Shown here piece after piece: positions 6,001 through 21,000 of a stretch of DNA of 64,000 nucleotides; the first letter of the stretch is position 1; each line of letters starts with the position of its first letter. This DNA is from Branchiostoma lanceolatum (Eukaryota > Chordata > Leptocardii > Amphioxiformes > Branchiostomatidae): the NCBI RefSeq assembly GCF_035083965.1, contig NC_089727.1:14460769-14524768 (forward strand), in the 5' to 3' direction. The position numbers and the translations under genes are program-made. The notes beneath the pieces are model-generated. The model had not been told where the DNA came from and searched no databases. It saw only the letters and a list, made by a program, of their open reading frames with translations.

Positions 6001-9000
6001 GGATCATAATTTCTGAGAAACTTTGAACACTGCAAAGTCTGGAGCGCTACGAGATCCTCAAAGGAACCCTGCCTGTGATATGCAAGAATGACTGCCAAAC
6101 AGTAGACTGTACAGGATTTGAGGATTACTACATGTAGCTGCTGTGTGGTTTGGAGGTGTTGTCCTTCGAAGTGAGAGAACTGAGTGGAGGGATTTCTTAA
6201 CTGACCAGTCATTTGGGGCAAGTAAACAAAACAACTGAAAACAGAATTTCAGAATAGTGATCTGTTATCGTACAAGATGGTGAATTTTACGGACTGGTAC
6301 ATCCCCGTCTTTATGACAATTGCCATCGTCGTCCTCACCATCTTCTTCGCACTTGTGTACTACTTCGAACCCTGCCTGGGAATGATCGGATGGAATGCAA
6401 CGGATCGCAAACCGCCTGCCTCCATCAACGAAATCAGCTTCTCGAAGCGCAACACCAAGGACGACACGAACACTGCTCTGATTCAAGATGCGGGATCACA
6501 GGACTTTGACGGATCACAGGACTTTGAAGGCTCACGCGAAAATTTGACAGACCATTCGATACTTCAGAGCGGCTCACACATTGTTGATATGGGATACGAT
6601 AACAAAGCGATGACACTGGACGAGCCACCGCAGGACGACATGAGGGAGAAGGGTACGCAAACACCTCCAAAGGACACGGAGCTGCGCGAATTAAACGCAA
6701 AAAACCTTGAGAAGGACGTAGCAACGGCAGGAGTCCAAACGACTCCACAGAAGGAATACACAATCCTAAAATCAGGCAGTACGGAGAGAACGCAGACACC
6801 GATAAAGCAGCAGGGGTCGGGAACCCGATCGTCTGCGCTACCAGGGCAGACTAACGCTAATGGGGACGGGGAATGGGCGACAATCTCATGGACTACACAG
6901 TTATAATGTACATAATTATGTGAGTGTACAATAAGTTTTGTGCAATTCAGCTAAATGTACAAACACTACATAGCTTTATCGATATCAATAAGTTGTGGGC
7001 AATTGAGATCTTTGTCAGCTGAATTTCAACAAATGCAATGTTTTCTGTAGGTACTACTAGCTAAAATATTGCCAAAATGGCTGATTGGTAGGATAATAGA
7101 TACCATCAAAAATTGGTCAAAATAGCAAATAAAATTACTTCTCGATGATATATATGCTTGTCTGGCATTTCAATGAGATTTAGTGAAAATATTTGATCTT
7201 GTTGTTTAACGGTTTATGGGTATATCTACAAAATGCATATTGTTCATATAATAATGTTTATCATATGTATCACCGTTACTGAATGAATATCAGCATAATA
7301 GGATTGGTCACTCGACCAATCGTAGGGAATTACGCTGAGGAAGCGACCTTCGACCCCCGCTCGTGCCGCCTTCATTAATAGCGACATCCTCCGTCCGTAC
7401 GGCTGGGCTCGCCTCCCGCTCAATGTTCCGTCGAAAATTTTCCCCTCTCGAGTCTTCACGAAGCATTTCAATCTACCGTGCGGTGCTCCCCAACTACCGA
7501 GGCACACGTATCCACCAAGAAACTAGCGGGTTGCCGTCCCCGCTGGGCCCGACGTGCACTCAGACAGCAGGGCCGCGGTGTGCAAGTACAGCAACGTGCA
7601 TGGGCCGCCAGTAATGTTGCCCACCTGGATTCGCAGTTCTAAGCGAGAGGCTCCACCCGACCCTGAGTCTCTACACTGTCCGTAATCCTTGGTGACGTTC
7701 TGCAGCGAGTTTTCTTCACCAGTCTGGGACCGCACACCCGTTCCTGCCTGCTCCTGATGAGTTCGTGCTCCAACGTCTACACAGAGAGTCTACAAACCGG
7801 AACGTTTATGGGTATATCTACAAAATGCATATTGTTCATGTAATAATGTTTATCATATGTATCACCGTTACTGAATGAATATCAGCACCATGAGATTGTT
7901 CAGCCACAGTGCAATATACAAGTGAGTCATGATATATTCGTTTTGTTCAGTATTTCTTACATATTGTACAACATGTCCTCTAGCACTGAGTGACTAAACC
8001 AGCCATCTATCGGTAAGTCAGAATATGCCTGTTTTTAGACAAAAAATTACGGCTTTTAAAATATCACAACAGGAAGGGTAGACAAAATTCCCTCTAGTAC
8101 TGTAGGAACAAAAAATAAATATTAGTACAAAATAAACATCAAGGCAATCAAATCTAGAGTTGGCAGACTTTATCCTATCACAAACAGCGACACTGCTACA
8201 TTGTGTAACATGTGGAATAGCAAAAACAAACTAGGTTCTGCTATTTATGTGCAAACCTATTTAAAAAGGCTATAATGACTTTAGATGTAGACTAAGTATT
8301 TCTCATTACTGAAAAGCGATCGAATCAAATTTTTTTGTACTCTCCTGTATACTGACTCAATTACTTCAATATATAATTTCGTTGTATGTGTTACAAATCA
8401 ATTACAATATTAAACTATTTTTCATATGAAATACTGGCCTCTCAGTTGATTTTCATCATTACAACACTGTATTTAGTTTTAGTCTTCTTGATAGTTCAAT
8501 ATCAGGGAAGATAATGCTATTTCTTTTCCTTACTGTTATCATATAACTATCGTGATTAAATCATTCAATGGATGTAAAAGCTTCTTCAAAAGTTTCTGCT
8601 TTTACACGTGTATACTTCATGAAGCTGAATTTGGAAATTTTACACAATGTAAGGAACAACACATTATACTACAATAAATGTAACCTTGGCAAAGGTAATA
8701 AAAGTAGTTGCTATTAATTGCCTTGTCCCTTCAATCACACAACAAGTTGATACAAGACCTTTGGACCACACAATAATATAAGAATCTGATGATACATTAA
8801 TTGCAATCCTTATCAAGATTCTGACTTTTGAAATTTTATTCCATTTTCAAAGCTATCTGACATTTCTTGTAATGATTACAAACTAGTGAAGCAAATAACT
8901 TGAACAGTTGTGAAATACATTTACAATAGATGTTGCCACTTAGTGGCATACGGTATCATACAAATTTTCTTTCCTGTCTGGTGCCATACTTGTGCTGTTT

Positions 9001-18000: not shown

Positions 18001-21000
18001 TTAGCTGCAAGGCACGGCTAACTGGAGAAATGTGACGTCACTGGCCTTAGAGGGAAACACACACCTTTTTTGCCATGATGTTAACTTCCTGTGTACTTGG
18101 AACTCATAAGTTGACTTGTTTGCTGTGTGGAGTAATGTACATAGCCAATAAATATCACTTTTGAGGAAATGCACAGCTTAAAAATTTCACTGTAATTTAA
18201 TAGCACCACCTGAACTTCAAAACAATGGTGTAATTGACACCTTATATATTCTGCCTTTCAGGCACTTATTGTTAGGATGGAAGTGACTCTTTTTAACAAA
18301 TGACACACTCTTTCGAAATATATCAAAAGTATAGATTTATGACTAGCCTGACTAAATCACGCTCCTAGCAGTCAGCCTGAAAGATTAACCTCAGCCAGCG
18401 AGAGATTGAGTAAACATATGCTAGATTTATGACAGCCACATTTTCTCCTTTCCTTTAAGATTCTGACCAGATATCTTGAAACACGGGTGCACCTTCAAGA
18501 TGGCTACAACTGCAGCAGCAAGTACCGCAGCTGCCACCACTGCAGCTGCCACAAATGCTGCGACAAACGCCGCTTCAACCGTGGCCGCCGCTACCACCGC
18601 CTCCGTATCCGGTTGGTACATCGACTGGCTGAACTTCGACCCCCTGCGGGATCAGTTCACCATTGGGTTCCTGATTGTTCTGGCGGTGTTCGTGGGCGCC
18701 ATGGCGATCATGTTCACCATCTGCTTCATCTACACGTTCTTCAGCTGCTGTGCGTCATGCTGTAAGTGCTGCTGCTGTTGTTGTAACGGGAAGAAGAAGG
18801 GCAGGAAACATGGAAGCAAGGTGGACGTGGAGTTGGACAATGTATAGAGCATCAAGCCTTGGGTGGGACATGTAACCACTCGCCTTTGTGTTCTCCTACA
18901 TTTATTCACATTGTTCTGATTTATCCCTTCAAAAATAAAAATACACGTAAAATGATTTGATGTTAGCTTCATGACATATATATCATAGATTTGATTTTTG
19001 GTACATTGAATATCCATGCAGTGTCATAGTTGCTTTTGACAGACTGTTTTTTGGTACACCTATTCTGAACAGGAATACCATCCTTCCAAATATGTAAGCG
19101 AACATATTCTTCTGCAGTCATTCAGTGAAGAAAAATATTATGTACTGTTTGAAGATGAATATACGTCATTTTTACAGTCTTTGAAATTTGACACAAGATG
19201 ACATCTGCATCTTTAACATAAAACACTGTTCCAGGAGCTTATTCCCCTAAAGCATCTATTATACCCTGAAAAGAATGGCAAACTGTCACATACATATACA
19301 AGTTGCCAGAGACAAACTCCCTTTCTTGTGGAGAATTATGTACATATTTGCTACCTTTCCATTTATCTTACAATTTTGATCATCAGATGATATATGTTTG
19401 TAGAAAACCTAGAGATTATGTGTAAATATTGCGTGAATCTTATATTACCTATGCCTCAAAGTAGGCACCCTTCTATGGAATCCTATATTGTGACTCCAAA
19501 GACTATGTGCCAAGTATATCCCAGATCATAACCTACTAAAACATTTTGTGTAATACAGAACTGAACAACAGACATTAGAATATTTAAATCACTTACCTTC
19601 TAAAATGTAATTATATCATCAACTAACTACCTAACCACATGACCAATCTTAGTCTGTCTGTAGCACTGCATTCAGAAAGGACACTACCTGTACTTGTAAA
19701 AGACTTGAAAGTGAACAAAGTAGCTACACTACAAACATGTATCGAATTGTGACTGACAATCTCCTTGTATCAGATTTCTTGTACGGTTGTATAGACGCAT
19801 TGTAACTGGCATTTCTTTGCATATCATTTTTTTGTTTAACTTTAAAGTTGAATTTGCTGCAAAATGTTGTCCTGTGTTGTGACAAGTGACTGACCATAGC
19901 TATGCATGTGAGCGTTTATGTACATATGTTAGTGCTGAGTGAAAAATGTTACCCTTTGCTTTAGCTTACTTTTATAAAGAGAAATACCCTTTGCTGTTGT
20001 TCAGTGTTGGTTTATCCTTTCATAATGTCATTTACCCACACAGATGAACTTTCATGCTAAATGCCCTTTGCATTTTCTTTGCTTGATGAATATCACAAGA
20101 TCATAGGATCCGACAATGGAATATGAAATGCTCTGTTCTGATATAAAATATGATAAAACTTGATGCTTTGTTTGAGGTTAGCAAGATGAAAGTACGGAAT
20201 TTACAATACATCTTCACATCCTGCTTCTATATATGTTGATATTTTCATTTATATTTCATGGCATTTGTTCATTTCATTTCCTTTATTTACCACAACATAA
20301 GTACTACTAGTATGTGGAAAAAAAGGTTCAACTTGATACTATCAATAGATGTATGAAACAATGACCGTGGTACAAAACCCGTCATTGATGATGTTCTATT
20401 TGCCATACTAAATACTTGAAACAATCATGGACAGAAGAGATATGTATACATCTATAACCGGAACAACTATTATCATTATCCGTCTCAACGGCGCTGTGAG
20501 CTCGAGCAAGACGACTTGGAGGTTTGCTGTATCGAGATTAAGCCGGAGAAGGCGAGAAAGACTCTGCTGGCCTGCGTGTATCGACCACCGACCTCTGGAC
20601 CTGACTGGAGAAACTCTGCTGAATCACTTGTGCACAAACTCAGTCAAACTGCAGAAAAAGAAAATGCAGACGTCGCCATCATGGGGGATTTCAACTCAGA
20701 CCTGCTAAATTCAACTCAAGCCATGTCTTCGGTGGAATTCCTGATGGGTTTGTACCAGCTCGACCCTGTAATACGCGAACCCACCCGCATTACAGAGACA
20801 ACTGAGTCGTGTATCGACAACATATTTGTCTCTAACCCGGACCGTTACAAGTCAAGTGCAAGTGTGGCCTGGGGGCCATCTGATCACAACCTTATACTGA
20901 CATGTGCTAAAGCTGGAGGAGAGGCTGGTGGAAGTCGCCGGTGTGAATACAGGTCTTACAAGCAGTACACACAACAGTCCTTCATCGACAGTTTAAAGTC

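Follow-up and report, generated by a model that had tools for sequence, protein, structure and literature searches.

Three plus-strand open reading frames for single-span membrane proteins in a large RECQL5 intron of Branchiostoma lanceolatum and the possible kinship of two of them to SMIM5/18/22 microproteins

We analyzed a 64,000-nucleotide (nt) window from the genome of the lancelet Branchiostoma lanceolatum, an invertebrate closely related to vertebrates (assembly GCF_035083965.1, contig NC_089727.1, positions 14,460,769 to 14,524,768 of the forward strand; coordinates below count from the first letter of this window), in which an initial annotation had described three small membrane-protein genes nested in one intron of the DNA-repair helicase gene RECQL5. 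The three plus-strand open reading frames (ORFs) of 209, 56, and 115 residues were found exactly where they had been placed, and all three lie antisense within a RECQL5 intron running from 24111 to 699. The host intron, its flanking exons, and the nested ORFs are as follows.

24112..24200, minus strand: RECQL5 exon 5' of the intron, ending in ...SLVKYCEEP plus AA (tblastn, E value of 7.9 alone, and DNA reading)
699..24111, minus strand: RECQL5 host intron, phase 2 (codon split AA/G), 23,413 nt (tblastn exon matches and splice sites in the DNA)
611..698, minus strand: RECQL5 exon 3' of the intron, starting with G (tblastn and DNA reading)
6277..6906, plus strand: ORF1, 209 residues (ORF list, lancelet orthologues, codon score, and AlphaFold2)
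13225..13395, plus strand: ORF2, 56 residues (ORF list and hydrophobicity)
18500..18847, plus strand: ORF3, 115 residues (ORF list, synonymous-codon score, and SMIM18 match)

The host gene was mapped by tblastn using a human RECQL5 query of 991 residues, which equals its published length. Colinear matches run on the minus strand from 27857 to 24689 (E values of 1e-4 to 3e-65), and a further match lies at 727-593 (E value of 3e-8). The intervening match at 24164-24117 covers 16 residues with an E value of 7.9 alone, and it was accepted because it lies in the expected order and frame and is bounded by fitting splice sites. At the junction, the exon end ...GAG CCC AA/GTAAGT and the next exon AG/G TGT CGT CAT provide GT and AG sites, which bears out the single antisense host intron of about 23 kb claimed earlier. 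Also in this intron is a plus-strand ORF of the long interspersed nuclear element type (20420-23128, 902 codons), in which reverse transcriptase and endonuclease families were recognized.

In the lancelet, the exon junction falls within the codon that aligns with residue 410 of human RECQL5. The human isoforms RECQL5alpha and RECQL5beta comprise 410 and 991 residues, respectively (PMC7947261). Since the junction falls at the end of the 410-residue RECQL5alpha, the host intron looks conserved, and the lancelet and human host introns are probably the same one. If retained, the lancelet intron completes one codon and then runs into a stop (AAG TAA, junction 24112-24111, minus strand); the length of RECQL5alpha is what retention of the same phase-2 GTAA intron would give. 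Because intron retention would end RECQL5 at the splice site in both lineages, the choice of host isoform and the expression of the nested genes may be linked. The lancelet may also make a counterpart of RECQL5alpha, in which case the truncated helicase would be a conserved isoform.

The chance expectation was derived from 200 first-order Markov copies of positions 700-20300, which keep base-to-base steps only. ORFs starting with ATG and encoding at least 45 residues were scored, and those whose 19-residue Kyte-Doolittle mean peaked at 2.8 or more were regarded as hydrophobic. The simulated copies contained a mean of 0.015 such ORFs each (at least one in 3 of 200 copies, two in none of 200), while the real region contained 4 among 53 ORFs, namely, ORF1, ORF2, ORF3, and one minus-strand ORF. 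The latter (18430-18621), which ranked second and lies opposite the Ala/Thr repeat of ORF3, was set aside. The three nested ORFs take the first, third, and fourth ranks (3.12 for ORF2, 2.81 for each of the other two) and are the most hydrophobic plus-strand ORFs of the region, in excess of chance expectation. An ORF of at least 209 residues was seen in none of the 200 copies; one of at least 115 residues was seen in 70 of 200, which means that the size of ORF3 cannot by itself count as evidence. For codon scores, training used 2,776 codons from other frames of the window; a single frame lacking any Pfam family supplied 1,852 of these. Among the 53 ORFs, ORF1 ranked first, ORF3 second, and ORF2 11th by total codon score, and ORF3 first, ORF2 fourth, and ORF1 seventh by synonymous-codon score.

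Each ORF has an in-frame stop just 5' of its ATG (6223-6225, 13183-13185, and 18464-18466 for ORF1, ORF2, and ORF3, respectively), and the start-codon context CAAGATGG is present at ORF1 and ORF3 and absent at ORF2. Candidate processing signals were read around the ORFs as follows.

7128..7133, plus strand: AATAAA 3' of ORF1, candidate poly(A) signal
13162..13178, plus strand: candidate splice acceptor 5' of ORF2, followed by the in-frame stop at 13183-13185 (inferred from DNA reading)
13733..13738, plus strand: AATAAA 3' of ORF2 (an ATTAAA is nearer, at 13487)
18443..18459, plus strand: candidate splice acceptor 5' of ORF3, followed by the in-frame stop at 18464-18466 (inferred from DNA reading)
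18934..18939, plus strand: AATAAA 3' of ORF3

As plausible acceptors stand just before the upstream stop, the coding part of ORF2 and of ORF3 would be a single exon. The cysteines at the inner membrane edge, attributed earlier to all three proteins, were found as three in ORF2 (HCYVCKC) and as a cluster of ten in ORF3, and ORF1 has only one (C33). Paralogy among the three ORFs was considered and dropped, the matches being confined to the hydrophobic helix (best E value of 0.009 without composition correction). An Rfam scan of the window gave 0 matches.

ORF1 is a real, conserved lancelet gene. Of 55 candidates in a protein database search, three proteins reached an E value of 10 or less, and each came from a lancelet record: Hypp3733 of B. 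lanceolatum (97% identity, 209 residues), LOC144876330 of a B. floridae x B. japonicum hybrid (89%, 208 residues), and LOC109467884 of B. belcheri (88%, 201 residues). These full-length, 88 to 97% identical orthologues establish conservation in other lancelets, and they are deposited as uncharacterized proteins with no function assigned. By themselves, these hits mark the window as lancelet DNA, probably from or near B. lanceolatum. With its 209 residues and long tail, ORF1 hardly qualifies as a micropeptide, and it has already been deposited. Aligning the four sequences gave 39 variable columns out of 209: 3 within residues 1-45, 21 within 46-98, and 15 beyond. No change occurs in any of the four rows at residues 6-45, which span the helix with its edge, or at the 12 C-terminal residues (198-209), and residues 126-171 contain one variable column. 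An 18-bp tandem repeat inside ORF1 (6493-6535) lies at the site of the length differences among lancelets, where six residues (73-78) are missing in B. belcheri and one (78) in the hybrid.

AlphaFold2, run with the four ORF1 sequences, predicted a single helix at residues 4-34 and a tail mostly below 50 in the predicted local distance difference test score, as were 164 of the 209 residues overall. An N-out/C-in topology is suggested by an N-glycosylation sequon that precedes the helix and by basic residues that follow it. The tail carries [KR]GTQT in all four rows (KGTQT here), VQTTP in all four, and a second TQT in three of four; the C terminus is -TTQL in all four. KGTQT fits the LC8-binding pattern, [KR]xTQT, and -TTQL fits the class I PDZ ligand pattern. 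When the tail was shuffled, at least two TQT occurred in 1,220 of 100,000 shuffles; the TQT count is thus only mildly unusual, and conservation is the better argument for the LC8 motif.

As yardsticks for the SMIM family, we used human sequences. SMIM5, SMIM22, and SMIM18 scored 84.8, 93.3, and 84.3 bits against Pfam SMIM5_18_22 (PF15831), and SMIM6 (endoregulin) scored 28.2 bits; as this borders the cut-off of 29.3, SMIM6 looks like a divergent relative of SMIM5/18/22. A database search with all four returned 289 proteins, and every named row among the 120 listed is from a vertebrate. These 120 were assigned to families by short patterns, with duplicates and unmatched proteins not counted, and the resulting profiles for a gapless test comprised 89 distinct 39-residue cores (27 SMIM18, 15 SMIM22, and 47 SMIM5), SMIM6 being represented by one sequence. 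As hhalign controls, phospholamban, myoregulin, and glycophorin A gave less than 14% against all profiles, and sarcolipin gave 21.8% against the pooled one; these controls have no Cys cluster and are therefore mild. SMIM6 gave six matches among solved structures, the best with an E value of 0.87. In the literature searched on SMIM5/6/18/22, we found no work placing SMIM5 or SMIM6 in a named RECQL5 intron and none treating the evolution of SMIM5/18/22.

The profile comparison with SMIM5/SMIM6 proposed in the initial annotation came out negative at the level of Pfam. The family plan, in which one helix precedes a group of cysteines, is full in ORF3, partial in ORF2, and reduced to one Cys in ORF1. 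For ORF1, a tie to SMIM5/SMIM6 is not supported: its best gapless score (against SMIM22) was reached by 194 of 3,000 shuffles, its pooled-family score by 686 of 2,000, and its best gapped hidden Markov model (HMM) score by 179 of 1,000, and the hhalign probability was 5.0% or less.

ORF3 is a probable gene and a possible distant relative of SMIM5/18/22. It is laid out as an Ala/Thr-rich N-terminal part, PLRDQF..., one membrane span, the ten-Cys cluster, and a KKKGRK basic patch; human SMIM5 has a similar Cys cluster and an RRGRK patch. The clearest likeness of ORF3 is to SMIM18: over 39 columns, between P..D and F[LI]Y...CC, the two share an ungapped register, in which PLRDQF...FIYTFFSCC faces PFHDNW...FLYEVLDCC. 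The score was reached by 7 of 3,000 shuffles; the register was spotted by eye and then tested with four families and three ORFs, and over these 12 comparisons the figure becomes about 0.03. Besides, hhalign gave 85.6% to SMIM18, reached by 1 of 150 shuffles, with 25% identity over 51 aligned columns, and an uncalibrated 78.2% to SMIM5.

Several results weigh against this kinship. None of ORF1, ORF2, ORF3, or the trimmed pieces of ORF1 and ORF3 matched Pfam SMIM5_18_22 at an E value of 10 or less with HMMER filters on. In the gapless test, ORF3 gave no signal against SMIM22, SMIM5, or SMIM6 (2,696, 2,042, and 982 of 3,000 shuffles). Its gapped HMM scores were reached by 138 (SMIM18), 2,315 (SMIM5), 1,890 (SMIM22), and 325 (pooled) of 3,000 shuffles, and by 160, 2,866, 1,668, and 2,998 without composition correction. 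With all parts shuffled, the pooled-family scores were reached in 110 and 273 of 2,000. High hhalign values to SMIM22 (94.0%) and the pooled family (94.4%) were dropped as evidence; because 61 and 48 of 150 shuffles keeping the Cys tail scored equally, they reflect that tail. A pooled-profile scan of the window did not place the in-frame piece of ORF3 in its top 15. Finally, a protein database search with ORF3 gave no match at an E value of 10 or less among 2,385 candidates, lancelets included. As the database does contain ORF1 from three lancelet records, ORF3 either lacks conservation or has yet to be annotated in it.

ORF2, with its very hydrophobic helix (Kyte-Doolittle value of 3.12, the highest of 53 ORFs) and HCYVCKC edge, may be a distant SMIM5/18/22 relative, less surely than ORF3. 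It resembles SMIM22 in the helix and the HC edge but, like the others, does not match the Pfam family. Its gapped HMM score against SMIM22 was reached by 16 of 1,000 shuffles, and its hhalign probability of 69.1% by 2 of 150; against the pooled family, the corresponding counts were 80 of 1,000 and 5 of 150, and a further test gave 25 of 2,000. In the pooled-profile scan, ORF2 came out on top of 1,232 stop-to-stop pieces of the window at 13.9 bits, a weak distinction because the piece at 52683-52817 scored 12.0 bits. No signal was seen with the gapped HMMs of SMIM18 and SMIM5 (575 and 649 of 1,000 shuffles).

Other observations count against ORF2, both as a relative and as a gene, and make it the weakest gene candidate of the three. 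The gapless test gave no signal over the four families (669 to 2,872 of 3,000 shuffles), SMIM22 included (2,872). The total codon score was near-neutral at 1.5 bits, and an out-of-frame ATG upstream, at 13208, has the CAAGATGG context and is thus better placed than the ORF2 start. It might be that only ORF1, perhaps with ORF3, is a gene and that the short ORF2 is a hydrophobic ORF arisen by chance. We regard this as rather unlikely: its hydrophobicity tops a set in which simulation expects 0.015 such ORFs per copy, it ranks fourth of 53 in synonymous codon choice, and its acceptor, in-frame stop, and AATAAA are correctly ordered.

The comparison with humans concerns location as well as sequence. 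Human SMIM5 and SMIM6 probably lie antisense in the large RECQL5 intron (codon 410). That they lie within human RECQL5 is upheld by a deletion (chr17:73623470-73661285) that lists exactly RECQL5, SMIM5, and SMIM6 (PMC6110470). The human genes and the lancelet nest alike encode small single-span proteins within RECQL5; no lancelet ORF has a significant sequence match to SMIM5 or SMIM6, and ORF3 differs from them by its Ala/Thr-rich N-terminal part and ORF1 by its far greater length. In an alternative scenario, a large, open antisense intron was colonized independently by unrelated small membrane-protein genes in lancelets and vertebrates. The lack of a Pfam match for any ORF and of convincing similarity for ORF1 (194 of 3,000 shuffles at best) speaks for it, as does the borderline likeness of ORF3 and ORF2, because a hydrophobic helix with cysteines converges easily. 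Against it stand the same gene, probably the same strand relation and the same intron, and the same protein plan, together with the ORF3-SMIM18 register and its hhalign score (7 of 3,000 and 1 of 150 shuffles). Independent colonization thus deserves serious attention as a possibility, short of an even chance.

Regulation of the sarco/endoplasmic reticulum Ca2+-ATPase (SERCA) by endoregulin-type micropeptides of the nest, raised in the initial annotation, is unsupported, and we consider it highly improbable. In its favor, SMIM6 borders the Pfam family that ORF3 and ORF2 weakly resemble. In the gapless test, however, no ORF showed a signal against the one SMIM6 sequence, and ORF1 is 209 residues long. 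Basic residues and cysteines after the helix suggest a cytosolic C terminus for ORF2 and ORF3, whereas endoregulin (ELN) has a cytoplasmic N-terminal part and a luminal tail (PMC8396278).

Elsewhere in the window, a minus-strand ORF of 1,852 codons (39207-44765) has no Pfam family at an E value of 0.001 and holds three copies of VHFLxSDACKGDISQHDM, and a plus-strand ORF (51713-53431) has BTB, BACK, and Kelch families of the KLHL type.

The explanation we favor, to which we give an even chance, is that a probably ancestral RECQL5 intron hosts antisense membrane-protein genes, with ORF1 an orphan docking protein and ORF3 and ORF2 SMIM-like. The intron itself probably dates back to the chordate ancestor, and it now houses small genes for membrane proteins on the antisense strand. 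ORF1 would be a lancelet orphan whose N-out/C-in helix anchors a disordered cytosolic tail; judging from its motifs, this tail is most likely a docking strand, in which KGTQT would recruit the dynein light chain LC8 and the C-terminal -TTQL a PDZ scaffold. ORF3, more likely than not, and ORF2, less surely, would be diverged proteins of the SMIM5/6/18/22 kind, with a helix, a basic patch, and, at the inner face, a group of cysteines that probably carries palmitate; they may assist larger membrane proteins as small binding partners, and their origin may lie in the gene from which SMIM5 and SMIM6 inside vertebrate RECQL5 arose. A bolder form, which we offer only tentatively, holds that the codon-410 intron has been a chordate microprotein nest for more than 500 million years, with ORF2 and ORF3 together co-orthologous to SMIM5/SMIM6 (with SMIM18/SMIM22 as paralogues) and ORF1 as a third resident for LC8/PDZ docking. 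Of the chordate micropeptide locus first envisaged, the conserved host intron is probable, the kinship of ORF3 and ORF2 is suggestive only, and ORF1 as an SMIM relative is unsupported; a nest shared across chordates is plausible, though unproven.

ORF1 is of interest in itself, as a conserved membrane protein of lancelets that is still uncharacterized and whose docking motifs can be put to the test. If ORF3 and ORF2 are true SMIM members, they would give the SMIM5/6/18/22 microproteins a pre-vertebrate root and would demonstrate that antisense nests are able to endure for more than 500 million years.

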